A stretch of 64,000 nt of DNA from Rhodopirellula bahusiensis (GTDB lineage: Bacteria > Planctomycetota > Planctomycetia > Pirellulales > Pirellulaceae): the NCBI RefSeq assembly GCF_002727185.1, contig NZ_NIZW01000014.1, forward strand, positions 124,001 through 188,000, given 5' to 3'. Numbering within the stretch: position 1 is the first letter of the stretch; every line of letters begins with the position of its first letter. Below the pieces are notes generated by a model that was not told the origin of the DNA, searched no databases, and saw only the letters and a program-made list of their open reading frames with translations. Position numbers and translations under genes: made by a program. This document shows, in pieces, positions 31,305-46,590 of the stretch.

Positions 31305-31655
31305 TCAGGCTTCGAGAATCTCAGTGATCTTTTCCGTTGGACGGCCAATCGCGGCTTTTCCGTTGTGGATCACGATCGGACGTTCGATCAACTTGGGGTT
31401 CTCCACCATCGTGGCGATCCACTGTTGGTCGGTCAGCGTTTGCTCACCCAAGTTCAGTTCTTTGAACAACGCTTCTTTCTTGCGGACCAAGTCTTTCGCG
31501 GGGATGCCCAGTAACTTCACGATCTCGGCGAGTTCTTTCTTCGTCGGCGGCGTGTCCAAGTACTTGATGACTTCTGGTTCGACACCACGTTCCTCCAGCA
31601 GTTGCAAAGCCTGACGTGACTTCGTGCATCTTGGGTTGTGATAGATCTTGGTCAT
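31305..31655 (-). CDS. arsC: arsenate reductase, glutaredoxin-type ArsC family
   Basis: 116 residues, the normal length for the ArsC/Spx/YffB family. The active-site Cys10 sits in NPRCTKSR, which carries the arginine after CT typical of ArsC. Later marks are KYLDTPPTKKEL, the catalytic-site Arg segment (PKLIERPIVI) and NGKAAIGRPTEKI. The enzyme would reduce arsenate to arsenite with glutathione/glutaredoxin-type thiols in the cytosol. No arsenite exporter or ArsR gene is adjacent, so the annotation rests on family alone. It lies 85 bp downstream of an NAD(P)-binding protein gene on the same strand. Confidence 0.87.
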   Translation of the reverse strand: MTKIYHNPRCTKSRQALQLLEERGVEPEVIKYLDTPPTKKELAEIVKLLGIPAKDLVRKKEALFKELNLGEQTLTDQQWIATMVENPKLIERPIVIHNGKAAIGRPTEKITEILEA

Positions 31656-32830: not shown

Positions 32831-34396
32831 CTATTCGTCCGTCGGCGATTCGGAGTCTTCTGGACTCGCGTCTTCGGAAGCCGCTGGTTTCACATCAATC
32901 CGGTACGCCTTCGCGATCGCTTGTCGGCTGTAGTCGATTGATTCGCCCAGAATTCGTGCGGACTCTTGGCTGGCATGGAATCCCTTGCTGTTTTCGCTGG
33001 CAATGTAGTCCAGACGCCACATCGCTTTGCGTTGCAAGTCACGAATCGGTTTGAGTTGTTCTTCGGTTGCACCGGCTTCTTGGACTTCGATGATCGCGTC
33101 CAGCATTTCGGTCATCGCGTTGGCAGCGCGATCGATCAGGGCTCGCGTTCGGTCTTGGATCACATCGACGCGAGCTTTGATTTCGGCCTCGGGAACCTTG
33201 TGGCAGGTTTGGCAGGCCTTGTTGATGTTCATCATCGGGCTGCGAACCCAGTGACTGCTGACCTTGGTCGCACCGACCTTTTCGAACGGCATGTGGCAAT
33301 CGCTGCAACTGACGCCGGCTCGAGCGTGAATGCCTTGGCTCCAAAGTTCGAACTCAGGGTGTTGAGCTTTGTAGACTTTGGTGCCGGTGGTTTTGTGAAC
33401 GTAGTCGTAGAACTCTCCGCCATCGGGGAACGTGGTAGCGTCCCATTCGGCCTCGAGGTTTTCCATCTTCAGCCCGTTGCTCCAGGGGTAAGTCAACGTC
33501 ATCTTGTTCGCACAGTAGTACTCGACATGGCACTGGCCGCAGACAAACGATCGCATTTCCTGGCGAGTCGCCATTGTGTTCGGGTCGTAGTCGCCTTTCT
33601 TGCCGCTATCACGCCAGGACTGGATGCTGGGCAGGTGTGGAACTTCAGCGTCGCTCTTGGCAAGTTTGTCGATGCCCAAGATGAATCCGGGGCGAGTGAC
33701 TCGAATCGACATCGTCTCGGGGTCGTGGCAATCCACGCATGAAACCGGATGGGCACCACCGACATGGGGATCGCCGCTGGCGGCGTCAAATCCATCGGGA
33801 GTCTTTTCGATTTCCGCATGAATTTCTTCGTACTTCTTGGTGCTGACCGATCGGAAGCCGGCCAAGACCGCCTCCTGTTGAAAGCCATCGGCCAGTGATT
33901 TCGCGTCGGCCGGTTTGCCTTGTTCTTCCAATCCGATTCGTCGGTACGTGGCGGCGATGGACGCGTGGCAATGCAAGCAAGCACCGGATTGTTGAACGTC
34001 GGTCACTCGCTTGGTGACTTCTTGGTCAGCCAACATGTGAGCGTGACCGCGTGCTTCGCGATAATCGATGCTGAAGGCATAGCCAGCAAACAATCGTTTC
34101 AGCCAAGGCGATTCTTCCAGCTTGCTGGGTGGCAGAGCGTGGTTGCCGCCGAAGTCGGTGTAATCGTCGTTGACCGTTTTCAGGTAGTCCTCGTATTGCT
34201 GCGGGAAGTTCAGGCCCCAGGGTTCTGGGTCGGTGCTGATTTCAGTGACGTCGACCACCTTGGTGAACGGAGCCCTGGCCTCTTGCTTGCGTTCAAAGAT
34301 GTTGACCAGCAACGCGACAACGCCGAACGTTGCGAAAGCGGTCAGTGCGGTCAATAGAATCAGCCATCCGAAGCTGCGTGGTTGCTGATCGGACAT
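32831..34396 (-). CDS. nrfA: ammonia-forming cytochrome c nitrite reductase (NrfA), five-haem, CxxCH at haem 1
   Basis: 521 residues. An N-terminal membrane helix (about 10-33) anchors the protein outside the cytoplasm. Five haem motifs: C140LHCH, C220VDCH, C286GQCH, C364SDCH and C395QTCH. NrfA reduces nitrite to ammonium with six electrons. In Escherichia coli the catalytic first haem is bound by CxxCK; here it is CLHCH, a variant known in some bacteria such as Campylobacter. The calcium-site and active-site region around VEYYC (residues 291-295) and the HARAGVSCSDCHMP segment are conserved. The gene lies 82 bp downstream of nrfH and is transcribed with it. An acidic tail ends the protein. 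Confidence 0.95.
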   Translation of the reverse strand: MSDQQPRSFGWLILLTALTAFATFGVVALLVNIFERKQEARAPFTKVVDVTEISTDPEPWGLNFPQQYEDYLKTVNDDYTDFGGNHALPPSKLEESPWLKRLFAGYAFSIDYREARGHAHMLADQEVTKRVTDVQQSGACLHCHASIAATYRRIGLEEQGKPADAKSLADGFQQEAVLAGFRSVSTKKYEEIHAEIEKTPDGFDAASGDPHVGGAHPVSCVDCHDPETMSIRVTRPGFILGIDKLAKSDAEVPHLPSIQSWRDSGKKGDYDPNTMATRQEMRSFVCGQCHVEYYCANKMTLTYPWSNGLKMENLEAEWDATTFPDGGEFYDYVHKTTGTKVYKAQHPEFELWSQGIHARAGVSCSDCHMPFEKVGATKVSSHWVRSPMMNINKACQTCHKVPEAEIKARVDVIQDRTRALIDRAANAMTEMLDAIIEVQEAGATEEQLKPIRDLQRKAMWRLDYIASENSKGFHASQESARILGESIDYSRQAIAKAYRIDVKPAASEDASPEDSESPTDE

Positions 34397-34478
34397 GACA
34401 AACCTTTGCGAACGAAGATTGAAAGAAGAGGTCGAATAGGAAGAACGTCAAAGAACGAGGTCGACACCAAGAACGGTG

Positions 34479-35015
34479 TCAACGCGGATGCATCCAGTCC
34501 ACTTTGCCGTGGCCCGCATGGCCAACGTCGGCATGGCAATGGACGCAGTTCTGCATGTCACCTTGCGAGGTCGCCGGCAACAACGCATGCACAAAATCAC
34601 GATGGCAGTCCACGCAAGTGCTCTGAGTGACTCGGCGGTTGCGTGGTTTGATTTCGATCGGATCGGAATAGCCACCCAAGGTGAATGCCAAGGAGTGGAA
34701 GAATCCATTGTCGCCTTTGACGACCCACTTGCCGATTTTGTCGTGCGGCAGGTGGCAATCGTTGCAAACGGCAACATGGTGGTGAGAACTCTGCTGCCAA
34801 GAATCAAAGTGCGATTGCATCACGTGACAATTGACGCACGTCTCGGGTTTGTTGCTCAGGTAGCTGGCACCTTTGCCGTAACCGAAAGTGAACGTGCCGA
34901 TACCGGCGAGCAGTCCCAGTACCAAACAAAAGGCAAACGTTGCTTTTGAATTCCGGGTTTTCGCGGAGTTCTTGATCGGCATCGGTTCCGATGGATCGCC
35001 GGTGGCAGATCGCAT
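34479..35015 (-). CDS. nrfH: NrfH, tetrahaem quinol dehydrogenase subunit of nitrite reductase
   Basis: 178 residues of the NapC/NirT family. One membrane helix at about 25-48 (ATFAFCLVLGLLAGIGTFTFGYG) is followed by four haem motifs: C60VNCH, C84NDCH, C134VDCH and C157VHCH. It takes electrons from menaquinol and passes them to NrfA. I start at MRSATGDPSE because an AAGGA sequence lies just upstream; the 35 codons before it are unlike NrfH. The promoter should lie between this start and the rhodanese gene (35016-35223), but I see no clear FNR-type palindrome or sigma-54 site there. Confidence 0.94.
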   Translation of the reverse strand: MRSATGDPSEPMPIKNSAKTRNSKATFAFCLVLGLLAGIGTFTFGYGKGASYLSNKPETCVNCHVMQSHFDSWQQSSHHHVAVCNDCHLPHDKIGKWVVKGDNGFFHSLAFTLGGYSDPIEIKPRNRRVTQSTCVDCHRDFVHALLPATSQGDMQNCVHCHADVGHAGHGKVDWMHPR

Positions 35016-35223
35016 GATGATCCATTCCTTTCGCGTGACCCAAGCCAGGTCAGAGATGACTCGCTTGGTGGGGTGGAATGTAACAACTTGCACGTGCGTG
35101 TGCACCTTTTGGATGACCAAATTGTGCTTTGTTGTCAGAACTTCATTGGTCTCTATACGATGTGATCGGACACTTGCGATGCGGGTGTGCTTATCTGCTC
35201 AGTTTCTATGTTGATGTGTGACT

Positions 35224-37133: not shown

Positions 37134-38534
37134 CTATTTCTCGACAGAGTAGCCCGCGTTTTTCCAGGCACTCATGCTGCCGGGCACATTGTGAACTCGC
37201 TGGAAACCGTTTCGTTGCAACACGCTCGCAGCGATGCTCGCTCTGTACCCACTGCCGCAATAAACCGCGACGGGCTCGTCTCGGTTCAGGTCCAACTCGC
37301 CGTTGACGCCATCTCTCATGTCAGCAACGTAGTGGTGTTTCGCTCCTGAAATTCGATTGGATTCGAACTCGGAAGACGCACGAACGTCGAGGATCTGAAA
37401 CTCACTCTGGTGTTCGTTCAGATCGTGAACGGTGAGTTGTGGCGTGGTCGACAACGGCAGTCCAGCATTGTCCCAGGCTTTCATACCACCGACGAGATAG
37501 CCTTCGAAGCGATGCAATCCGACGACCGCAAAATGCCACGCGACCCAGTCCAATTGGGTTTCGTCATCCACGACGAGCAGGATTGGCCGATCGTAGTCGA
37601 GCATGTCGCCGGCCCAGACCGATAGTTCAGGTCGGTCACCCAAGTTGATTGCACCCTCGATGTGGCCTCCACCAAACGCGAGCATTTGACGTGTGTCGAC
37701 GAGTTGTGCTTGGCCAGTCTGAATGGCTTCTTGGAATGGCTTCGGAGGCAGGCCCGGAACGACGGGGGCGTGACCAATCAGATCGGGACCCTCGGCATTG
37801 ATCTTCTTCAGAATCGGATAGTGCTGGGGCACCGGCGGGGCACCCTCGGTGACGAACTTTGCGAACTCGTCGAAGTCTTCGTGCTGCAAGAACGCATTGC
37901 TTTTCCGTTCCTGGCCAATGGTCGTCATCGGTCGTTCACCGATGCTGGCTCCACACGCCGAACCGGCACCATGACATGGGTAAACGATGACGTCATCGGC
38001 GAGTTTTAAGTAATAATCACGAAGCGTTGAGAACAGTTGCTTGGTGAGTTCTTCGGTTTCCTCTTCCCACAGCAAATCCGGACGGCCAGCGGATCCGACG
38101 AAGAGCGAGTCACCACTGAGCACACCCCATGGTTCGTTTGGCGAATCGGAATCAGCCAGCTCGTACGACAAATGTTCGGGGGTGTGACCAGGCGTGTGTC
38201 GGGCGGTGATCTTTGTGGATCCGAATTCAAACGAATCTCCGTCCTTGATTTTTTGAACGTCGAATCCGTAGCTGGCATCGCCTTCGCCGCTCGCGAAAAT
38301 CTTTGCGTTGCCGACTCTGGACTGCAGTTCGCGCGAACCGCTCATGAAGTCCGCGTGGATGTGGGTCTCAAAGATGTGCGTGATTGCGACGCCGTGTTGA
38401 CGGCTGAGACGGACGTAAGTCTCGACGTTGGGTTGTGGGTCGATGACCGCCGCGGTTCCGGTGCTGTCATCGCCGATCAAGTAGGACAGTTGCGAGATTC
38501 CTCCCGTTTGAATGCTCTCAAAAATCATGGTCAT
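37134..38534 (-). CDS. metallo-beta-lactamase-fold persulfide dioxygenase-like protein with two rhodanese domains
   Basis: 466 residues. The N-terminal metallo-beta-lactamase domain (about 1-250) has H58-x-H60-x-D62, His117 (HTPGH) and Asp142 (LSGD), the mononuclear-iron arrangement of ETHE1-type persulfide dioxygenases. Two rhodanese domains follow. The first (about 270-365) has lost its cysteine (VVDDETQLDW in the loop). The second (about 375-466) keeps it (VYCGSGYRAS). The expected role is oxidation of glutathione- or protein-persulfide to sulfite, with sulfur handling by the active rhodanese. The start MTMIFESIQ has AGGTG 6 nt upstream. The DUF442 phosphatase gene lies 120 bp upstream on the same strand. 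Confidence 0.9.
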   Translation of the reverse strand: MTMIFESIQTGGISQLSYLIGDDSTGTAAVIDPQPNVETYVRLSRQHGVAITHIFETHIHADFMSGSRELQSRVGNAKIFASGEGDASYGFDVQKIKDGDSFEFGSTKITARHTPGHTPEHLSYELADSDSPNEPWGVLSGDSLFVGSAGRPDLLWEEETEELTKQLFSTLRDYYLKLADDVIVYPCHGAGSACGASIGERPMTTIGQERKSNAFLQHEDFDEFAKFVTEGAPPVPQHYPILKKINAEGPDLIGHAPVVPGLPPKPFQEAIQTGQAQLVDTRQMLAFGGGHIEGAINLGDRPELSVWAGDMLDYDRPILLVVDDETQLDWVAWHFAVVGLHRFEGYLVGGMKAWDNAGLPLSTTPQLTVHDLNEHQSEFQILDVRASSEFESNRISGAKHHYVADMRDGVNGELDLNRDEPVAVYCGSGYRASIAASVLQRNGFQRVHNVPGSMSAWKNAGYSVEK

Positions 38535-38654
38535 CGGACTCACCTGGATGTCTGGAAAAAAGTGTCAGTGGAATCGGTCCAGCGAGGTTCGTCGTGGAAC
38601 CTCGCTGGGTTCCGTTGCCGCAAATGAGCGACCGCGGTTCGAGTTCCCAAGGGA

Positions 38655-39116
38655 TTAATTCGCGGCAGCTTGGGTGCGGTTGTTGACGTATTGCTTCACG
38701 AATTGTTCCAGCTCGGGTTTGTCGCATTCGAAGCCCATCTCTTTGGCTTTCTCGAGTGCTTGTTCGCCCGAGATGCCTTGTTCCACCGCGGTGTGCATCA
38801 TCATCATCGCTCCGGCCCGCTTGCCGCTTTTGCAGTGAGCAAAGGTCGGTTTCGGCAGAGACTCGTATTGCTCTCGAAACTGATCAACCTTGTTTTCATC
38901 CATTCCGTCCATCGAGACCGGGACATGCAAGTACTTCAATCCGGTGGATTGGACGAGTTCGCCTTCCGCATCCGGAGACATTGGCTGCTCGTCTTCTCCT
39001 TCGGTCCGGAAGTTGATGACGGAGCGAAAACCTTCGTCAGGCAATGACTTCAGTTCGTCCTGGCTTGGTTGTGGGCCGACGGTGAGTTGATCGTTGAATT
39101 TCATTCGGTTTGACAT
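38655..39116 (-). CDS. DUF442/beta-lactamase-hydrolase-like phosphatase domain protein
   Basis: 153 residues of the DUF442 family, a dual-specificity-phosphatase-like fold with active-site loop H94-C95-K-S-G-K-R100 (C-x4-R) and an upstream INFRTEGEDEQ segment. In rhizobial Blh this domain is fused to a metallo-beta-lactamase domain and takes part in H2S detoxification. Here the two parts are neighbouring genes, with this one first. The biochemical role of the domain is not settled; sulfurtransferase-like chemistry has been proposed. A sequence matching a sigma-54 promoter lies 58 nt upstream of the start. Confidence 0.87.
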   Translation of the reverse strand: MSNRMKFNDQLTVGPQPSQDELKSLPDEGFRSVINFRTEGEDEQPMSPDAEGELVQSTGLKYLHVPVSMDGMDENKVDQFREQYESLPKPTFAHCKSGKRAGAMMMMHTAVEQGISGEQALEKAKEMGFECDKPELEQFVKQYVNNRTQAAAN

Positions 39117-39173
39117 GGGGGACTCCGCTTCTGGTGATGTGATTCGTTTTAAAAATGGACGTCCCCATCAACG

Positions 39174-39189
39174 AGCAATTGACGTTCCA
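39174..39189 (-). promoter_or_regulatory. sigma-54 promoter candidate for DUF442/MBL-rhodanese genes
   Basis: On the minus strand the sequence reads TGGAACGTCAATTGCT. It fits TGGCAC-N5-TTGCW with one core mismatch, and the GG and GC doublets have the required spacing. It lies 58 nt upstream of the DUF442 start. Confidence 0.65.
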
Positions 39190-39191
39190 GA

Positions 39192-39232
39192 TCTGTGACA
39201 GAGCCGGACAGTGGTGTGACAAGTCGCTCACA
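39192..39232. promoter_or_regulatory. candidate activator sites between divergent sigma-54 promoters
   Basis: Two dyads lie in the 82 bp between the two promoters: TCTGT-g-ACAGA (39192-39202) and TGTGA-N8-TCACA (39215-39232). The second has the GTGA...TCAC form also seen upstream of the UspA-VIT1 and kinase promoters. A single enhancer here could serve both directions. Confidence 0.4.
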
Positions 39233-39271
39233 TCTGAACCATTGATTGGTGAAAAACCGGGTTGTTCGCTT

Positions 39272-39287
39272 TGGCATCAAGATTGCA
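39272..39287 (+). promoter_or_regulatory. sigma-54 promoter candidate for the first UspA gene
   Basis: TGGCATCAAGATTGCA matches TGGCAY-N5-TTGCW at every core position with exact spacing. It lies 86 nt upstream of the UspA ATG. It is the best sigma-54 match I see in the window. Confidence 0.75.
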
Positions 39288-39372
39288 ATTCTGAAGCTGG
39301 ATCACCGCTGCGAGCGATCAAGCGTTGCTATCCGTCAGTTGGGATCGCTTTTGAAAACGAGGAGTTGATGTC

Positions 39373-40278
39373 ATGCGCAATGTTTTGCTAGCAGTTGATG
39401 GTTCGAGACCATCCGAGGAAGCTGCCAAGTTTCTCGCACGCTTACCCCATTTCGATCCCGTCGAGCTGACTTTGGTTTCGGTCGTGCATCGAAGATTTGT
39501 TCACGCAAGCTATTCGACCAACGAACTGGTCGAAAAAGCGTATGAGCAGGATTGCTTGACTACACAGGCCAGTCTTCAGCGTATCGCAGGCATATTTGAT
39601 GGTGCGAACGTTCACGTGAAGACGGAACTGATTGAAGGAGCGGTCGGTGAATCCATTGTGCAAAAAGCCAAGGACATCAAAGCAGATTTGGTGGTGGTGG
39701 GTGCAACCGGGCATTCGCAGATCAGTCGAATGCTACTGGGCAGTACAAGCGATTTTGTTGCCACGCATGCTCCCTGCAGCGTCTTGGTGGTTCGGTCACA
39801 AATGTTGCCTCAGAAATCGGCTCCGCTGAAAGTGTGCTTGGGCTACGAGGGCACTGGTCCCTGCCAAGCTGCCCTGGAGGAACTGATGGAAAGTCCTTGG
39901 CGTGGGCAGACGGAATTGAATGTGGTTCTGGTGGCGAACTGCTTGAACGAAATGTACGCCGATTCGAAATGCGTGCAGTACTACAAGGACGAGCTGTCCC
40001 ATGCGAAAGAGCAGCTGGAAGAAGTGTCCGATCACGTGACCACTCACTTCTTGGAAGATGTTCACTACGGTGAAGGCATCACCCGATTCGTCGAGTCGCA
40101 CGACATCAATCTGGTCGTGCTTGGTGAAACACCTCGTTCGCAGTTCAGCAGGTTCTTGTTGGGAAGTACTTCGCAGTACGTGCTGCGTCATGTGCCATGC
40201 AGCGTCTGGATCACTCGCAATCGCATGATTGAAGGCCTGAAGCGTTCGGAAACAACGTCGGCGGTGCAACGGCAGTGA
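39373..40278 (+). CDS. tandem UspA universal stress protein
   Basis: 301 residues with two Usp domains (about 1-145 and 150-290). The first has the ATP-type signature GATGHSQISRMLLGSTSD followed by PCSVLVVR. The second has the related GETPRSQFSRFLLGSTSQYV, in which the first glycine spacing is altered, so only the first may bind nucleotide. The start has GAGGAG 8 nt upstream. Tandem Usp proteins help cells survive stress and growth arrest; the mechanism is not established. It is the first of three such genes in 4 kb and has a near-perfect sigma-54 promoter. Confidence 0.92.
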   Translation: MRNVLLAVDGSRPSEEAAKFLARLPHFDPVELTLVSVVHRRFVHASYSTNELVEKAYEQDCLTTQASLQRIAGIFDGANVHVKTELIEGAVGESIVQKAKDIKADLVVVGATGHSQISRMLLGSTSDFVATHAPCSVLVVRSQMLPQKSAPLKVCLGYEGTGPCQAALEELMESPWRGQTELNVVLVANCLNEMYADSKCVQYYKDELSHAKEQLEEVSDHVTTHFLEDVHYGEGITRFVESHDINLVVLGETPRSQFSRFLLGSTSQYVLRHVPCSVWITRNRMIEGLKRSETTSAVQRQ

Positions 40279-40311
40279 AAGGAAGCCAGCAGACTGTTGA
40301 AGGAACGTTGG

Positions 40312-41106
40312 TCAAACCCAGTTGCTGATCGCTTTGCCAATGAAGTACGCGATTGCGGCAGCCGAGCCTCCCAGGGCCAACGTTTCTAGGCCTGAGAACA
40401 GCCATGACTGGGCGATGAATCGCGACTTGACTGCTCCCACAAGAAAGAATGCCGCGGCAGTCAGGATCGTGCTTTGCAGATAGGTGCCGTGATCCAACGT
40501 GTCGCCAACGCCGCCCGTGATCGCGGCGAAAACGAACGGGAACAAGGGTAGGAATCCAAGGATCAGAAACGCGACAAACGTCGTTGCGGCAGCCACCAAC
40601 GGCGATTTCGCGGACAGACTCAGTCCAAGTTCGTCGGTCAACATCACGCGTACCCAACGCTCTTTGTCTTGGGTAATGATCGTGACCGCTCGTTCCAGAT
40701 CATCGCCTTCGAATCCCTTGCGATTCATGATCTGGCGAATCTCTTCTCTTTCCCCGGATGGATAGGTGTCGATCTCGTGTTCTTCGCGAGCTCGCATCTT
40801 TTCAAATTGTTGACGTTCGACTCGCGTGCCCGAGAAGTTGCTGGCCGCCATGCTGAAGCCGTCGCCCACCAAGTTCGCCAAACCCAGGACGATCACGATC
40901 GAAGGTGACAAGCTCGCCCCCGCCACACCGGACACAACGGCGAACGTTGTGACCGTCCCATCGATGGCACCGTAAACAAAGTCCGGCAGGTAGTCGGGCC
41001 TCAGTCCCTCATCAAGACGTCGGCCGATCGCTTCTCGGGTGTGTTCGGCTGCCAACGTTTTCGAGTCGGGAGCGTCTTCCTTTTTGGCCCGCGTGTCAAA
41101 GATCAT
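40312..41106 (-). CDS. VIT1/CCC1-family membrane transporter (iron/manganese)
   Basis: 264 residues. The N-terminal soluble helix is followed by LPDFVYGAIDGTVTTFAVVSGVAGASLS, the signature first helix of VIT1/CCC1 proteins, then helix 2 (VLGLANLVGDGFSMAASNF), a charged cytosolic loop rich in Glu/Arg (VERQQFEKMRAREEHEIDT, a likely metal-binding segment), and three C-terminal helices. Plant and yeast homologues move Fe2+ or Mn2+ out of the cytosol. The start overlaps the stop of the upstream UspA gene by 4 bp (ATGA), so transporter and stress protein are made together. The substrate metal is inferred from the family. Confidence 0.87.
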   Translation of the reverse strand: MIFDTRAKKEDAPDSKTLAAEHTREAIGRRLDEGLRPDYLPDFVYGAIDGTVTTFAVVSGVAGASLSPSIVIVLGLANLVGDGFSMAASNFSGTRVERQQFEKMRAREEHEIDTYPSGEREEIRQIMNRKGFEGDDLERAVTIITQDKERWVRVMLTDELGLSLSAKSPLVAAATTFVAFLILGFLPLFPFVFAAITGGVGDTLDHGTYLQSTILTAAAFFLVGAVKSRFIAQSWLFSGLETLALGGSAAAIAYFIGKAISNWV

Positions 41107-42050
41107 GTTCCTGCCATCGATTGTTCTGCGATCTGACGATGCGCCTTGGCTCGATCTTCTTTGTCGCGAATGATCAGCACGCTGCAGTCCGCATGGCGAA
41201 GAACATACCGAGAGGTGCTGCCCAGAAATACGCGAGTGAGCAGTCCGCTGTCACTGTCACCGGTCACAGCCAAGTCACAGCCATGGCGTCGCGAATATTC
41301 GACCAAGGCCTCGCCAACGTGATCGGCTTCGACCAAGTGCGTTTCGGTATTGAGCCCTAAGTCTTGCAGTTTGGTTTCGAAGTCCAGAATCTGAGCTTGA
41401 GCTTGTTCATGCTGCGAATTCCAAATGTCGGAGGCTTGCTCACGCAGGTCTTGGCGATAGAAGGTGAAGCGATCAAGAATGCGAACCAGGTGAATTTCCA
41501 CGTTGGGACGCAACTTCAACTCTTTCAACCACGACAACATGCGTTCGTCCTCTGGGCGGCCTGACAATGCCACCATGATCTTTTGCAAGTCGAGTTGAAC
41601 GCTCGCTTCTTTGGGGGCGCGAACCACCAGGGCGCTAGAATCGGCATGAGTTGCGACATAGTCGGAAACGCTCCCCAAGAGAACTCGTTCGATGGCGGAG
41701 TGGCCGATGGCCCCCAGCACAATCAGGTCGGCGCTGGATTGTTCCGCGACGTCCAGCAAAGCCGATGTAGGCGGACCGATCGGGACATGAGTGTGCACCG
41801 AATGAACGTGATCTTGAGATTCTAAATCGTTCGCCAGATGCGAGATGGCCTCCCGGTTGCGGTCCGTTTCAATCTCCAGAAACGATCCGAAGTCCAGTGG
41901 CATGGACATCGATCCCGTGTCGACCATCATTGGTGGAGCCACGACCGAGACGAGGTCAAAGTCGACGGGCTTTCTCAGCGGCAGATGCGATGCAAACTCC
42001 ACGGCCTGATGTGCATGGGGAGAAGAATCGACGGCCAGTAAAATTCGCAT
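41103..42050 (-). CDS. tandem UspA universal stress protein
   Basis: 315 residues, two Usp domains. The first carries GAIGHSAIERVLLGSVSDYVATHADSSALVVR; the second carries GDSDSGLLTRVFLGSTSRYVLRHADCSVLIIRD. Both keep the C-terminal G-S/T part of the nucleotide loop. I start at MRILLAVDSSPH, the usual Usp opening; the 29 codons before it contain the sigma-54-type promoter and cannot be coding if that promoter is used. It is co-transcribed with the VIT1-type transporter through a 4-bp overlap. Confidence 0.92.
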   Translation of the reverse strand: MRILLAVDSSPHAHQAVEFASHLPLRKPVDFDLVSVVAPPMMVDTGSMSMPLDFGSFLEIETDRNREAISHLANDLESQDHVHSVHTHVPIGPPTSALLDVAEQSSADLIVLGAIGHSAIERVLLGSVSDYVATHADSSALVVRAPKEASVQLDLQKIMVALSGRPEDERMLSWLKELKLRPNVEIHLVRILDRFTFYRQDLREQASDIWNSQHEQAQAQILDFETKLQDLGLNTETHLVEADHVGEALVEYSRRHGCDLAVTGDSDSGLLTRVFLGSTSRYVLRHADCSVLIIRDKEDRAKAHRQIAEQSMAGT

Positions 42051-42132
42051 CGGACAGTTCCCATCAATGGAGGTTTGGGTCAAAGATGTTGTGCGGGCCG
42101 GATGATCCATCCCGCACTGAAATGCACAGGTT

Positions 42133-42148
42133 TGCAACCTTCAGGCCA
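42133..42148 (-). promoter_or_regulatory. sigma-54 promoter candidate for the UspA-VIT1 operon
   Basis: On the minus strand: TGGCCTGAAGGTTGCA, with GG and TTGCA at the correct spacing and one mismatch in the -24 core. It lies 83 nt upstream of the UspA start, almost the same distance as for the first UspA gene. Confidence 0.68.
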
Positions 42149-42210
42149 AGTCAAATTTCATCGGAATTGGATGGGATGTGTGCCAATGCGGCACGGGTGT
42201 CGGACAGGTT

Positions 42211-42229
42211 GTGACGAACTGCACGTCAC
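42211..42229. promoter_or_regulatory. inverted repeat upstream of the UspA-VIT1 promoter
   Basis: GTGACG-N7-CGTCAC, a perfect 6-bp dyad about 63 bp upstream of the -24 element. That is within the usual range for an enhancer-binding activator. A CGGACAG..TGTGAC string overlapping it also occurs, with spacing changed by one base, between the divergent promoters near 39.2 kb. Confidence 0.45.
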
Positions 42230-43179
42230 GAATGCAAGTTTTTATTTGCGGTGGACGATCGAGTGATCGAGCGTGCAATCAGCACGGATTGGGATGCATG
42301 CCGGACGACGAAGCGGCTGACACTCCCCAGCATGACCCGTTCGATCATCGTGTCGTCCTGATCGCCAACGATGATCAAGTCGCAGTCGTGCGAATCGGCA
42401 TAGTCGACAATGGTTTGACCGATGTGAGCCGACTCGACGAGCATCGGCCGCACATGAATGCCGAGAGACTCCAGTTTCGGCCGCGTCGATTCCATCAGCT
42501 TCCAAGCCGCTGAGCGGACCTCTTCCATGTAGGCCGAAATTTTCTTCAACAGATGCAGTTCGTATTCCGGATGAGTTTCCATCACATGCAGCAGGTGGAC
42601 TTCACAACCAGGCTGCAACCGCAGCGTTTCAATCCATTCCGGCAATGAGGCATCCGAAGCAGCATTGCTGATCGCGACGACCACCCGTGTGAAAACACTC
42701 TCGGTCGCGTCCGGTGGGGTCTCGGGTGAACGATGAATCAAGCAAGTGCATGAAGCACGATTGGCGACGTAGTCCGAAGTGCTGCCCAGCATGATCCTCG
42801 CGATCGCAGAGTGGCCAACTGAACCAAGGACGATCCAGTCGGCACCTTGAGTCTCGGCCAGTTGCAGTAACTCTCGCCCAGGATGTCCTTGGGCGACGAC
42901 CGTTTCGCAAGCCGAAAAACGGGAGCCAAGTTCATCGGCCAGTGCTTGCAGGCGTCTTTGTTCCGCTTCCATTCGTGAATCGAAGACTTCCTGCGGAATC
43001 CACGGCAAATCTGTGTCATCGACACGGTAGAGCGGCGGTTCCGAGACGACTGTTGCCAGTGAGACATTGCAAGATGGAGCAATGGATGACATCGCCAATG
43101 CTTCCAACGCATTGCGAGCCGGCGGTGATGGATCCACGCCAACCAGTGTTGTTAAGTTGCGAGATTGTTGTTCGCTCAT
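42226..43179 (-). CDS. tandem UspA universal stress protein
   Basis: 317 residues, two Usp domains. The first ends in GSVGHSAIARIMLGSTSDYVANRASCTCLIHR; the second has VGDQDDTMIERVMLGSVSRFVVRHASQSVLIAR. I start at [16 protein letters not shown]. The start overlaps the stop of the NtrC-type regulator by 4 bp (ATGA), so the stress protein is made from the same message as the activator. The stop lies about 175 bp from the start of the next UspA gene. A long N-terminal extension is possible in frame but lies inside the regulator gene and is rejected. Confidence 0.91.
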   Translation of the reverse strand: MSEQQSRNLTTLVGVDPSPPARNALEALAMSSIAPSCNVSLATVVSEPPLYRVDDTDLPWIPQEVFDSRMEAEQRRLQALADELGSRFSACETVVAQGHPGRELLQLAETQGADWIVLGSVGHSAIARIMLGSTSDYVANRASCTCLIHRSPETPPDATESVFTRVVVAISNAASDASLPEWIETLRLQPGCEVHLLHVMETHPEYELHLLKKISAYMEEVRSAAWKLMESTRPKLESLGIHVRPMLVESAHIGQTIVDYADSHDCDLIIVGDQDDTMIERVMLGSVSRFVVRHASQSVLIARSITRSSTANKNLHS

Positions 43180-44633
43180 AACACTTCTTCCGATGGCAAG
43201 TTCTGCTCGAAACGTTCCAGCAGGCGATAGAGCTTTCGGCGATGGATTCCCAAATGCCGAGCTGTCTTGGCTTTGTTTCCTCCAAGCTGCTCCAGAACCT
43301 TGAGCACGTGTGCTTTGACGAGGTCGTCGACTTTCAAATTGCTGTCGCCCAACGCCGGGTCTTGCTCGGCGTCGATCGACGTTCCATTCTCGCAATGATC
43401 GATTGCGACGGATTCGCCATTGAGATGCGAGGATTCGGAAAATTCAGGGGGCAATCGCATCGATGAAAGCGAGTCGTTCGCGTGAACAAGCTCACGTGGC
43501 AAATCATCCATCGTGATCACCTGCTGATCGGCCAGGATCGTGGCACGCTCGATGACGTTGATCAACTGCCGAACGTTGCCGGGCCAGTGGTAGTGAACCA
43601 TGGTCTCGAGTGTTTCATCATCCAACGACCATCCACGAGGCAAGAAGTGTTGAAGCAGCAGTTCGATATCGCCTTTGCGTTCTCGAAGCGGAGGCAGATT
43701 GAGTGTCAGCACGTTGATCCGGTAGAAGAGATCTTCTCGAAACCGTCCCGCTTTGACTTCTTCGGTCAGATCACGATTGGTTGCAGCGATCAGTCTGACT
43801 TTGACTTTGCGTTCTCGATGGCACCCGATCCTGCGGAGCGAGCCGTCTTCTAGGACTCGCAGCAATTTCGGTTGCAGCTCCGGCGGCAGTTCTCCGACTT
43901 CGTCGATGAACAAGGTTCCACCATCAGCCACTTCGAACAGTCCGGGTTTATCGGCCGTCGCACCCGTGAACGAACCTTTTTGATGCCCGAACAGTTCGCT
44001 TTCGACCAATTGCTGAGGAAGCGCCGCGCAGTTGATCGTCACAAATGGCCGGTCCGATAGATCGCTTTGTTGTTGAACCGAGCGTGCCACCACCTCTTTG
44101 CCAGTTCCGCTCTCACCTTCAATCAGGACCGGCTTGCGAGTGGGAGCGACCTTTGAAATCATTCGAGAAAGGTCTTTCATGGCCACGGAATTGCCGACCA
44201 ATTTGGGGGCAGGACGATTTCGAGTCACGATTGCTTTGAGCTGTTGGTTTTCCTTTTTGAGTTTCCCTCTTTGACTAGCCAATTGCACGCGATGTTCGAG
44301 ATCGACCAAGGAGCAAGGCTTGGTCAGGAAATCGCAAGCTCCCATCTGCATTGCCTGAACGCAGGCTTCGATGGTTCCTTTCCCGGTCAAGAAAACAACC
44401 TCCACATCAAACGCTTCTTCCTGAACTCGTTGCATCAATTCGAGGCCATTCATCCCTGGCATGTCGATGTCGAACACAGCCACATCGAAATCTTCCCGGT
44501 CAAGGAAAGTCATCGCCTCGGCTCCACTCGCGGATGATCTCACCGTGTGCCCCAATCGCTCCATGAACTTCCCACAGCTGCGTCGGTAGTCATCTTCGTC
44601 ATCGACAAGTAGCAATTTAATGGTCTGACTCAT
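43176..44633 (-). CDS. NtrC-family sigma-54 response regulator (REC-AAA+-HTH)
   Basis: 485 residues. Receiver domain (1-120) with phosphorylation site Asp55 (VFDIDMPG) and switch Lys105. AAA+ domain (about 145-385) with Walker A GESGTGKE (173-180), the sigma-54 contact loop GSFTGA (220-225; most activators have GAFTGA) and Walker B LFIDE (241-245). A Fis-type helix-turn-helix ends the protein ([22 protein letters not shown], about 450-475). It activates sigma-54 RNA polymerase when phosphorylated. It heads an operon with the third UspA gene. The soluble kinase encoded divergently is its likely partner, and the sigma-54-like promoters of this cluster are its likely targets. Confidence 0.94.
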
Positions 44634-44689
44634 GATGGCTGCTGGTCGTCTGGAGGTGGATTCGGGATTGAGTTGCCGATGGTGTCTTC

Positions 44690-44705
44690 TGCGATCTTCG
44701 TTCCA
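44690..44705 (-). promoter_or_regulatory. weak sigma-54 promoter candidate for the NtrC-UspA operon
   Basis: On the minus strand: TGGAACGAAGATCGCA. GG and GC spacing is right, with two core mismatches; the -24 part TGGAACG is identical to that of the DUF442 promoter. It lies 57 nt upstream of the regulator start. Confidence 0.4.
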
Positions 44706-44911
44706 TCGTTTGATGGACGGGAAATCTAGGCAAAACTGCTTTTTGGCGTGCGAATTGGATCACCGTGCGTGCATTATCGCACAGTCGGAGGTGGCATCGT
44801 ATCGATGGAGCAAAATGAAGCCGGAATTGTCTTGAGGCGGGGTTTCGCTGAAGTTCCGGTCGATTTCACCAAGCTTGCGATAACTAACTGCGTGCTGACC
44901 CAGATTCTATG

Positions 44912-44928
44912 ACGTGAGATTGTCACGT
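44912..44928. promoter_or_regulatory. ACGTGA-N5-TCACGT inverted repeat
   Basis: A perfect 6-bp dyad just upstream of the plus-strand sigma-54-like site. It shares the GTGA...TCAC half-sites of the repeats upstream of the UspA promoters, but the spacer length differs. Confidence 0.4.
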
Positions 44929-44936
44929 TCTCAACG

Positions 44937-44952
44937 TGGCACATCATTCGCG
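44937..44952 (+). promoter_or_regulatory. weak sigma-54 promoter candidate for the kinase gene
   Basis: TGGCACATCATTCGCG: a perfect -24 TGGCAC, but -12 reads TCGC instead of TTGC. It lies about 165 nt upstream of the kinase ATG, further than for the other genes. Confidence 0.35.
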
Positions 44953-45117
44953 AAACGTCGGGGTTTCCGGATGTCACGGTCGGCAAATCAATTGCGAGTC
45001 AATCAACTCGCTGCATGTTTCAAAAACGTTTGACTGCTTTGATCAAAAGTTTGTTCGTGTTTGCAAGACGCGACACTGACGTTCGCTTTTTCTCCTCTCT
45101 CGTCCTTCAAGACTCTC

Positions 45118-46590
45118 ATGCAATTTTTTAACCACATCCTTGTCATTGAGGACGACCTCGATGCGGCCGAGTCTTTGTCCGACGTGTTATCAATCGAAGG
45201 ATTCGAAGTCACGATCGTGGCGAGCGTTCATGAGGCGTTGGAAGTTCTCGGGAAAAAACGATTCGGGTTGATTCTGACCGACCGGCGTCTTCCAGACGGA
45301 TTGATCGAGGATCGAGTGCAAGATCTGCTTGCCGCGAGCGCGAAAACTCCGGTGATTGTGGTGACGGGTTACAGCGATCTGCAGGCGGCCATCAAAGCCT
45401 TTCGGCAGGGGATTTCGGACTATGTTATCAAGCCAATCATTCCTGAAGATCTGATCCAAACCGTGCGTCGGATCCTTGATCGTCGTGTCCTAAAGCAGGA
45501 GCTGGTTAAGGAGCACGCCTTTGCTGAGCGACTTCAGTCCACCGCCGAAGCCATTATCCTGGTTTTGGATTTCAATGGCCAAGTCGTTCATTTCAACCGG
45601 TTCTTGACGGAGTTGACTGGTTGGACACAAGATGACCTCATAGGAGAGAACTGGTTTGAAAAATGTATCTTCACCGATGATCTTGATCGGCTCAGTCAGA
45701 TCTTCGAGACCACCGCGAGACTGGAATCTTCGCGAGGTGTCACCAACCGGATTCGCTGTAAAAACGGCGAGGCTCGCGAATTCCGTTGGTCCAATTCCAA
45801 GTTGAATGATGACGAAGGTTGCCCGCAGTTTGTTTTGTCGATCGGCATTGATGTGTCGGACCTAGCGGAAGCCACACAACGTGCTGTTCGCGCCGAGCGT
45901 TTGGCAGCAATTGGGGAAACCGTCGCTGCACTAGCACATGAAAGCCGGAATGCGATTCAGCGAATCAAGGCGGCGTCCGAGGTCCTGGCAATGGACATTC
46001 GCAACGACTCGGATTCAGAAGAAGAATTGTCTGCCATTCAGCGAGCCGCCTCTGATCTAGCGACATTGCTGGAAAGTGTTCGGGCCTTTGCGGCGCCAAT
46101 TCATACCAAGCTCGAACGTGTCGACTTGGAGTACATCTGGCAGCGAGCATGGAATGACTTGGAATCCAAATGGCGACTCCGCGATGCAAAGTTGATCGAA
46201 ATGGCGTCCACGTGCGAGCATGAGGTCGAAGTCGATGTCTGCCGGATGGAACAAGTCTTCCGCAATTTGTTCACCAACGCTTTGGAGGCAACGGATGGAT
46301 CCGTTCGAATCGAAATGGATTGCAGTTGTGACGAAAGACAAGTTCATGTTCGCATCAAGGACAACGGTCCCGGTTTGACCGAAGAGCAAGCGAACCACAT
46401 GTTTGAGCCGTTCTACACCACGAAGCCCACCGGGACGGGGCTGGGGATGCCGATCTGCCAACGAATCATTGAAGCTCATGGAGGCACGATCATGGCAGAA
46501 TCATTTGAGACCGGAACGAAAGTTTCGATCTGCGTTCCGCGAGAAAAGACGGCGTCGCTGATGGGGCTTCCTGAAGTTTCGCTGGCCTGA
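45118..46590 (+). CDS. soluble REC-PAS histidine kinase
   Basis: 490 residues with no membrane span. Receiver domain (1-120) with Asp55 (LILTDRRLP) and Lys105 (YVIKP). A PAS domain (about 135-250: STAEAIILVLDFNGQVVHFNRFLTELTGW) has no obvious haem or flavin residue. The HisKA domain has phospho-accepting His274 (ALAHESRN). The ATPase domain has NLFTNALEATDG, DNGPGL and GTGLGMPICQRIIEAHGG. The N-terminal receiver lets another kinase tune it. It is divergent from the NtrC-type activator and is its best partner candidate. I start at MQFFNHILVI, where the receiver fold begins; no Shine-Dalgarno is seen. Confidence 0.92.
   Translation: MQFFNHILVIEDDLDAAESLSDVLSIEGFEVTIVASVHEALEVLGKKRFGLILTDRRLPDGLIEDRVQDLLAASAKTPVIVVTGYSDLQAAIKAFRQGISDYVIKPIIPEDLIQTVRRILDRRVLKQELVKEHAFAERLQSTAEAIILVLDFNGQVVHFNRFLTELTGWTQDDLIGENWFEKCIFTDDLDRLSQIFETTARLESSRGVTNRIRCKNGEAREFRWSNSKLNDDEGCPQFVLSIGIDVSDLAEATQRAVRAERLAAIGETVAALAHESRNAIQRIKAASEVLAMDIRNDSDSEEELSAIQRAASDLATLLESVRAFAAPIHTKLERVDLEYIWQRAWNDLESKWRLRDAKLIEMASTCEHEVEVDVCRMEQVFRNLFTNALEATDGSVRIEMDCSCDERQVHVRIKDNGPGLTEEQANHMFEPFYTTKPTGTGLGMPICQRIIEAHGGTIMAESFETGTKVSICVPREKTASLMGLPEVSLA

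Follow-up and report, generated by a model that had tools for sequence, protein, structure and literature searches.

The 64,000-nucleotide stretch of the Rhodopirellula bahusiensis genome analyzed here (contig NZ_NIZW01000014.1, positions 124,001 to 188,000; the window) contains a gene cluster that is probably a sigma-54 regulon with its own NtrC-type activator, linked to oxygen by a haem-based relay. The cluster encodes the two-domain universal stress proteins (Usp) UspA, UspB, and UspC, proteins of persulfide chemistry, a VIT1-type iron transporter, the activator, and a REC-PAS kinase. The sigma-54 promoters of UspA, UspB, the BLH-type gene, and the activator gene are about as certain as sequence evidence allows. 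In some relatives, a FixL-like haem kinase lies beside the cluster, which points to a circuit that responds to low oxygen. A first-pass annotation of the window had proposed a sigma-54 regulon joining universal stress proteins, persulfide chemistry, and VIT1-type iron transport, and site conservation supports this union for Usp genes, the activator, and persulfide genes, with VIT1 added in this species.

Sigma-54 sites of the cluster and their conservation

Both strands of the window were scored with a rough sigma-54 position weight matrix. The five sites reported by the first-pass annotation, all with exact GG-N10-GC spacing, were recovered at their places among the 33 matches of at least 8 bits. 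The site for UspA (TTGGCATCAAGATTGCA; 39271..39287, plus strand) is the best in the window at 16.8 bits, and is followed by those for UspB-VIT1 (TTGGCCTGAAGGTTGCA; 42133..42149, minus strand; 16.2 bits, rank 2), BLH (CTGGAACGTCAATTGCT; 39174..39190, minus strand; 15.7 bits, rank 3), and the activator-UspC operon (ATGGAACGAAGATCGCA; 44690..44706, minus strand; 13.1 bits, rank 5). These sites lie 85, 82, 57, and 56 nt, respectively, from the ATG codons of their genes, close to the 57-86 nt proposed earlier. A fifth, doubtful site precedes the kinase gene by 165 nt (44936..44952, plus strand; 9.2 bits, rank 27 of the 33). Four sites satisfy GG-N10-GC in a TGGC/TTGC-like context, and the activator site carries TCGC at -12.

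Comparison with background gave a mixed outcome. Three matches of at least 15 bits were seen in the 64 kb, all in the cluster, compared to 0.93 expected (first-order Markov model, 60 simulations); there was little or no excess at lower thresholds (8 compared to 4.8 at 12 bits, and 13 compared to 13.3 at 10 bits). Genome-wide, the bare sigma-54 pattern is not enriched (31 matches compared to 32 for the reversed control), which implies that the case is carried by position and conservation. A second sigma-54 pattern gave 26 matches compared to 15 for its control, and pattern searches were set aside as a route to the whole regulon because the controls were not clearly beaten.

Position and conservation were assessed with the orthologous clusters that five congeneric genomes carry (G004, G006, G002, G009, and G011; the window genome is G000). 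The UspA, UspB, and activator sites occupy the same alignment column in all six species, with mean scores of 15.8, 14.0, and 11.2, respectively; the lowest score of the activator site is 7.3, in G011. The best mean in column shuffles was about -7, and none of 300 shuffles attained the observed scores of these three sites. Nine control intergenic alignments of 2 to 5 species each reached a maximum of -0.7; three of them beat their own shuffles at p<0.05, yet with negative scores. The BLH site is kept in all five species in which BLH was found at this place (the window genome and four relatives), and the kinase site has a counterpart at the aligned position in three of six. Thus, of the two sites that the first-pass annotation had called weaker, at 44690 and 44937, the second deserves the description and the first does not. 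One further genome, G025, was included in the UspA alignment and left out of the permutation test, because its UspA is just 47% identical and the region is not alignable; a separate 15.6-bit site stands 36 nt ahead of UspA in this genome.

These results bear on the possibility that the sites are chance look-alikes, gathered by reading a full 64-kb window. Such an explanation would account for the genome-wide count and for the absence of an excess of weaker matches in the window, but it is contradicted by the alignments of the UspA, UspB, and activator sites across six species, by the lack of any such site in the nine control alignments, and by the retention of the BLH site in five of five species. 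We therefore consider it very improbable for the cluster, although it remains a live explanation of the kinase site at 44936.

Sites of at least 12 bits were also tallied upstream of the open reading frames (ORFs) in 21 loci. They precede 10 of 29 Usp ORFs, whereas among 226 ORFs without a Usp, NtrC-type, kinase, or BLH match only 10 have one; they also precede 4 of 25 NtrC-type matches and 6 of 40 kinase matches. Eight of the ten site-bearing Usp ORFs are the UspA and UspB orthologues in loci L077-L081. These counts are not independent events. Upstream sites of the UspC orthologues in L077-L081 all score 6 bits or less, in keeping with the place of UspC behind the activator gene in one operon. 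A crude screen for intergenic sites in 78 loci drawn from the pattern searches flagged eight loci besides the UspB site; the UspA site was itself lost in this screen, because an ORF extends across it.

Products of the cluster genes

The activator gene (43176..44633, minus strand) encodes REC, sigma-54 AAA+, and Fis-type helix-turn-helix (HTH) domains (Pfam Sigma54_activat, 7e-70), with an intact Walker A motif and a GSFTGA loop. This loop variant occurs in 7 of 11 compared activators, and GAFTGA in the remaining four. The closest named database records are from Roseiconus nitratireducens (63% identity) and Rhodopirellula sp. SM50 (62%). The kinase gene (45118..46590, plus strand) encodes a REC-PAS-HisKA-HATPase protein according to Pfam, which resembles NmpS of Myxococcus. 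An NtrC-type activator and a soluble REC-PAS kinase had been read from the letters before, and the profile matches bear out both. The genome has one RpoN gene.

UspA (39373..40278, plus strand), UspB (41103..42050, minus strand), and UspC (42226..43179, minus strand) each match the Pfam Usp family in two stretches (7.6e-51, 5.1e-51, and 9.9e-49, respectively). The start of UspB was placed at the ATG at 42050, in agreement with its orthologues, and the UspC gene overlaps the activator stop. In G002 and G009, UspB and UspC are separated by insertions, which were checked for extra targets and appeared transposase-like by eye. The VIT1-type transporter (40312..41106, minus strand) matches Pfam VIT1 at 3e-60 over positions 3-214 of 214, which is the full domain, and the VIT1 structure 6iu3 at 6.6e-24 in PDB.

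On the other side of the UspA promoter, the BLH-type phosphatase-like protein (38655..39116, minus strand; Pfam BLH_phosphatase, 1.7e-14) is a probable sulfurtransferase; it matches the NCBIfam Blh/TIGR01244 families, in all cases below their cut-offs. Behind it on the same strand, the product of 37134..38543 contains an MBL dioxygenase domain and two rhodanese repeats at the domain level (Pfam; PDB 3tp9, 2.8e-78; 3r2u, 1.2e-64; ETHE1, 1.7e-14), a build that we take to be that of a persulfide dioxygenase of the CstB-like type.

Candidate enhancer dyads

Inverted repeats that may bind the activator lie upstream of the -24/-12 sites. A single candidate dyad, TGTGAC...TCACA (39215..39232), picked out by alignment and dyad counts, is common to the divergent BLH and UspA promoters. 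Others precede UspB (GTGCC-N5-GGCAC, 42180..42194) and the activator gene, which has a proximal candidate (GTG-N10-CAC, 44748..44763) and a distal one (44768..44783) reading TGTGCGATAATGCACG on the minus strand. In the 110 nt that precede the -24 element, GTG-N8-11-CAC was found at 20 of 23 cluster promoters, compared to a shuffled mean of 2.3; the spacing range was fixed after inspection of the cluster, and the BLH/UspA region was counted twice. Similarly, among 14 sites in other clusters, 9 have this dyad, compared to a shuffled mean of 1.3; these 14 were hand-picked as strong sites that stand before Usp, activator, or dihydroorotate dehydrogenase (DHODH)-like genes or in the same cluster as these. 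At five sites in G126, G142, and G219 (family f7), the dyad takes the form TGTGCG-N4-CGCACA, with three exact copies and two with one mismatch, which is close to the distal dyad of the window activator.

A FixL-type haem kinase and the signal

The proposed link to oxygen comes from a FixL-type kinase. In G011, which has an orthologous cluster, this kinase lies directly behind the orthologous REC-PAS kinase, its top PDB matches are FixL haem domains (phmmer, E 7e-31), and the haem-pocket motif HDxY...IIGIGR is in register. In FixL, the pocket His ligates the haem and an Arg lies in the FG loop; alignment and a motif scan that included the G000 copy found both residues in the PAS domain of the FixL-type kinase, which also has a kinase domain. 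Of the 17 activator-centred loci L077-L093, eight have a haem-motif kinase, G011 among them; five of these were recognized by pattern, and three by visual inspection of six kinases. In the window genome, the FixL-type kinase is on another contig (C30), and its neighbours there, identified by homology, are a REC-PAS kinase and a REC-REC protein. This module spans 10066-13455 of L118, where no NtrC-type activator was seen alongside.

We infer, with good reason, that oxygen is probably the signal. In the mechanism that we propose, a haem-based oxygen signal from the FixL-type PAS kinase and its REC-REC partner would enter the relay, and the REC-PAS kinase encoded in the cluster would pass it to the NtrC-type activator. 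The phosphorylated activator would then bind the dyads immediately upstream of the -24/-12 sites and, together with RpoN, turn on UspA, UspB(-VIT1), the BLH-MBL-rhodanese genes, and its own operon including UspC. The products may prepare the cell for low oxygen, with the Usp proteins acting against energy stress, BLH and MBL-rhodanese handling persulfides, and VIT1 exporting the Fe2+ that remains soluble as oxygen drops.

Alternatively, the promoters and activator could be real and the signal be something other than oxygen, with nitrite, sulfide, or energy state as the input of the REC-PAS kinase and another output for the C30 FixL-type module. The FixL-type gene is remote from the cluster in G000, G004, and G006, genes for a nitrite reductase (NrfHA) and for persulfide chemistry stand beside the window cluster, the inspected PAS kinases of L089-L091 are without the haem motif, and L077-L080, L092, and L093 yielded no haem motif, all of which would fit such a signal. 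On the other hand, the FixL-type kinase recurs in nearly half of the activator loci, as described above, and a haem-motif PAS kinase is present in three clusters of another family too. We regard a signal other than oxygen as rather unlikely. Three clusters of family f7 (G126, G142, and G223) hold an activator, VIT1, Usp matches, a FixL-type kinase, and sigma-54-like sites of 13-19 bits.

Several observations count against an oxygen-linked regulon of this kind. To the rough matrix and the flat genome-wide count of the bare pattern can be added that, outside the L077-L081 clusters, the site-bearing Usp ORFs drop to 2 of 14. The palindrome TGTGC-N6-GCACA, with at most one mismatch, occurs 125 times genome-wide compared to 241 times for its reversed control (per strand), and the dyad-plus-promoter pattern 30 times compared to 41 for its control, with 3 of the 30 in the cluster. 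The FixL-type kinase of the window genome is outside the cluster, and the second REC-PAS kinase adjoining it, which is 44% identical to the window kinase, may be its real partner. The REC domain of the window kinase and REC1 of the REC-REC protein are just 21% identical, so that shared specificity like that of NmpS and NmpT is not seen. A persulfide dioxygenase uses up oxygen, which is odd for a strictly anoxic role. The neighbouring NrfHA genes were found to have no conserved sigma-54 site in an intergenic alignment. Finally, the enhancer of the Myxococcus activator NmpR is GCGCA-N5-TGCGC, compared to GTG-N8-11-CAC here; GCGCA-N5-TGCGC is not among the dyads listed above, and no search aimed at it was made.

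Linkage and distribution of VIT1

The VIT1 start overlaps the UspB stop through ATGA, which implies that the UspB promoter should drive VIT1, and VIT1 can be controlled by sigma-54 only via this overlap. The five close relatives lack VIT1, with no match at E 1e-3 and none in their clusters. We examined 38 other VIT1 loci, with flanks of up to 1.5 kb, from a list that included 20 further places. Six of these loci (G032, G243, G126, G142, G223, and G219) adjoin the activator subfamily or a clear Usp gene and span four genera in families f1 and f7. The activator is directly upstream on the same strand, or one small gene away, in four of the six. One further locus has a weak Usp match.

The arrangements of the linked loci differ. 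In G142, a DHODH-like gene, the activator, and VIT1 stand in a run behind a 14.9-bit site; G126 also has a 14.9-bit site, followed by a 330-aa gene (of the same size as the DHODH-like gene of G142), the activator, a DUF7670 gene, and VIT1. G219 has a 13.6-bit site ahead of the activator and VIT1. The activator adjoins VIT1 in G223, where an 18.6-bit site stands ahead of a Usp match, and in G032 it has a 15.7-bit site and is divergent from a Usp-VIT1 pair. VIT1 of G243 is upstream of the UspB promoter and so is not under it.

VIT1 could instead be a passenger that was inserted behind UspB and is co-transcribed without a role in the response. Its absence from five close relatives and the 32 of 38 other loci that have neither an activator nor a clear Usp within 1.5 kb argue for this explanation, but the ATGA overlap and the six linked loci, four with the activator upstream on the same strand, argue against it. 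We consider a passenger possible, though the less probable alternative. Sigma-54 control of VIT1 is likely in this species and is backed in other families by a minority of loci. For the broader proposal, that VIT1 has been captured repeatedly in the order by a relay running from a FixL-type sensor through NtrC and sigma-54 to Usp, persulfide genes, and VIT1 export, as a planctomycete counterpart of the dormancy regulon, we judge the chances to be evenly balanced.

Relation to known systems

Among the closest known parallels is NmpRSTU of Myxococcus xanthus. The two systems share an NtrC-type activator, a hybrid kinase with an N-terminal REC domain, a REC-REC protein, and a haem kinase, as well as sigma-54 promoters with dyad enhancers and, among the targets, promoters of their own loci and a Usp gene. 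NmpR activates sigma-54 promoters including that of a Usp, and the system is tied to oxygen limitation (PMC11841059). The sensing domain is a protoglobin in NmpU and a FixL-type haem PAS domain here, and the targets of NmpRSTU include cbb3 oxidase and hemN in contrast to the tandem Usp, persulfide, and VIT1 genes of the cluster. The parts are on two contigs in the window genome, whereas a paralogous locus of G002 has the NmpRSTU make-up together (activator, REC-PAS kinase, second PAS kinase, and REC-REC protein). The likeness is one of build. In the window genome, a search for a protoglobin kinase gave a single protoglobin match (E 8.6e-5), barely over the cut-off. Homologues of NmpSTU have been reported in planctomycetes in a 2018 paper (PMC6211767).

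With rhizobial FixL, the FixL-type kinase shares the haem-PAS histidine kinase build and the aligned haem-pocket His and Arg; unlike in rhizobia, its link is to NtrC-type activators and REC proteins, through gene neighbourhood. The Mycobacterium dormancy regulon and the Burkholderia lxa locus, which are not known to be NtrC/sigma-54 regulons, have in common with the proposed circuit that Usp genes would take part in a low-oxygen response. PMC11841059 is one source for the low-oxygen induction of their Usp genes.

Sigma-54 control of Usp is already published, and the new elements are the FixL link and VIT1. The first-pass annotation knew of no description of sigma-54 control of UspA and a VIT1-type transporter. 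For Usp this is corrected by the published work, and for VIT1 one literature search for sigma-54 and VIT1 iron transport found nothing. Likewise, among the titles and abstracts listed in literature searches with most subscription journals outside their coverage, none combines FixL, NtrC/sigma-54, Usp, and VIT1 in planctomycetes. Studholme and Dixon in 2004 reportedly described sigma-54 activators and promoters of Pirellula strain 1, and may have included some of these promoters. That study is cited for a thioredoxin promoter in an R. baltica microarray paper, in the available text of which 'usp' is absent (PMC2754498). A matrix survey of Planctomycetia found COG0589 (Usp) and COG2204 (NtrC-type) enriched for predicted sigma-54 promoters; in its accessible part, the Usp and NtrC-type genes are not connected with any cluster, haem kinase, enhancer, or VIT1, and FixL and hypoxia are not mentioned (PMC12316311).

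Planctomycetes have many kinases and activators and few known circuits. The circuit proposed here would span sensor, relay, activator, enhancer, promoters, and targets, would tie sigma-54 to bacterial VIT1 iron transport, and would give tandem Usp genes a candidate signal.

Neighbouring genes and further sites

NrfHA is located near the cluster at 32831-35120 of the window, with NrfH above the NCBIfam cut-off and the NrfA-like multihaem nitrite reductase below it. As a regulon member NrfHA is not supported here by the alignment. In G142 (L199), a Usp-NrfH-NrfA run stands behind a 19-bit sigma-54-like site. An ArsC-like thioredoxin-fold reductase, assigned by eye, is encoded at 31305-31655 of the window. 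The palindrome TGTGC-N6-GCACA is half as frequent in the window genome as its reversed control.

Elsewhere in this genome, a 15.9-bit sigma-54-like site (L023; G000:C21:77419-77435) lies 68 nt ahead of a gene for a protein with a receiver-like start, as judged by eye, which may be another autoregulated activator. A DHODH-like flavin mononucleotide (FMN) gene in two families (L199:11298-12290 and L083:7499-8542) has a sigma-54-like site about 50-60 nt upstream and is a possible further member of the regulon.

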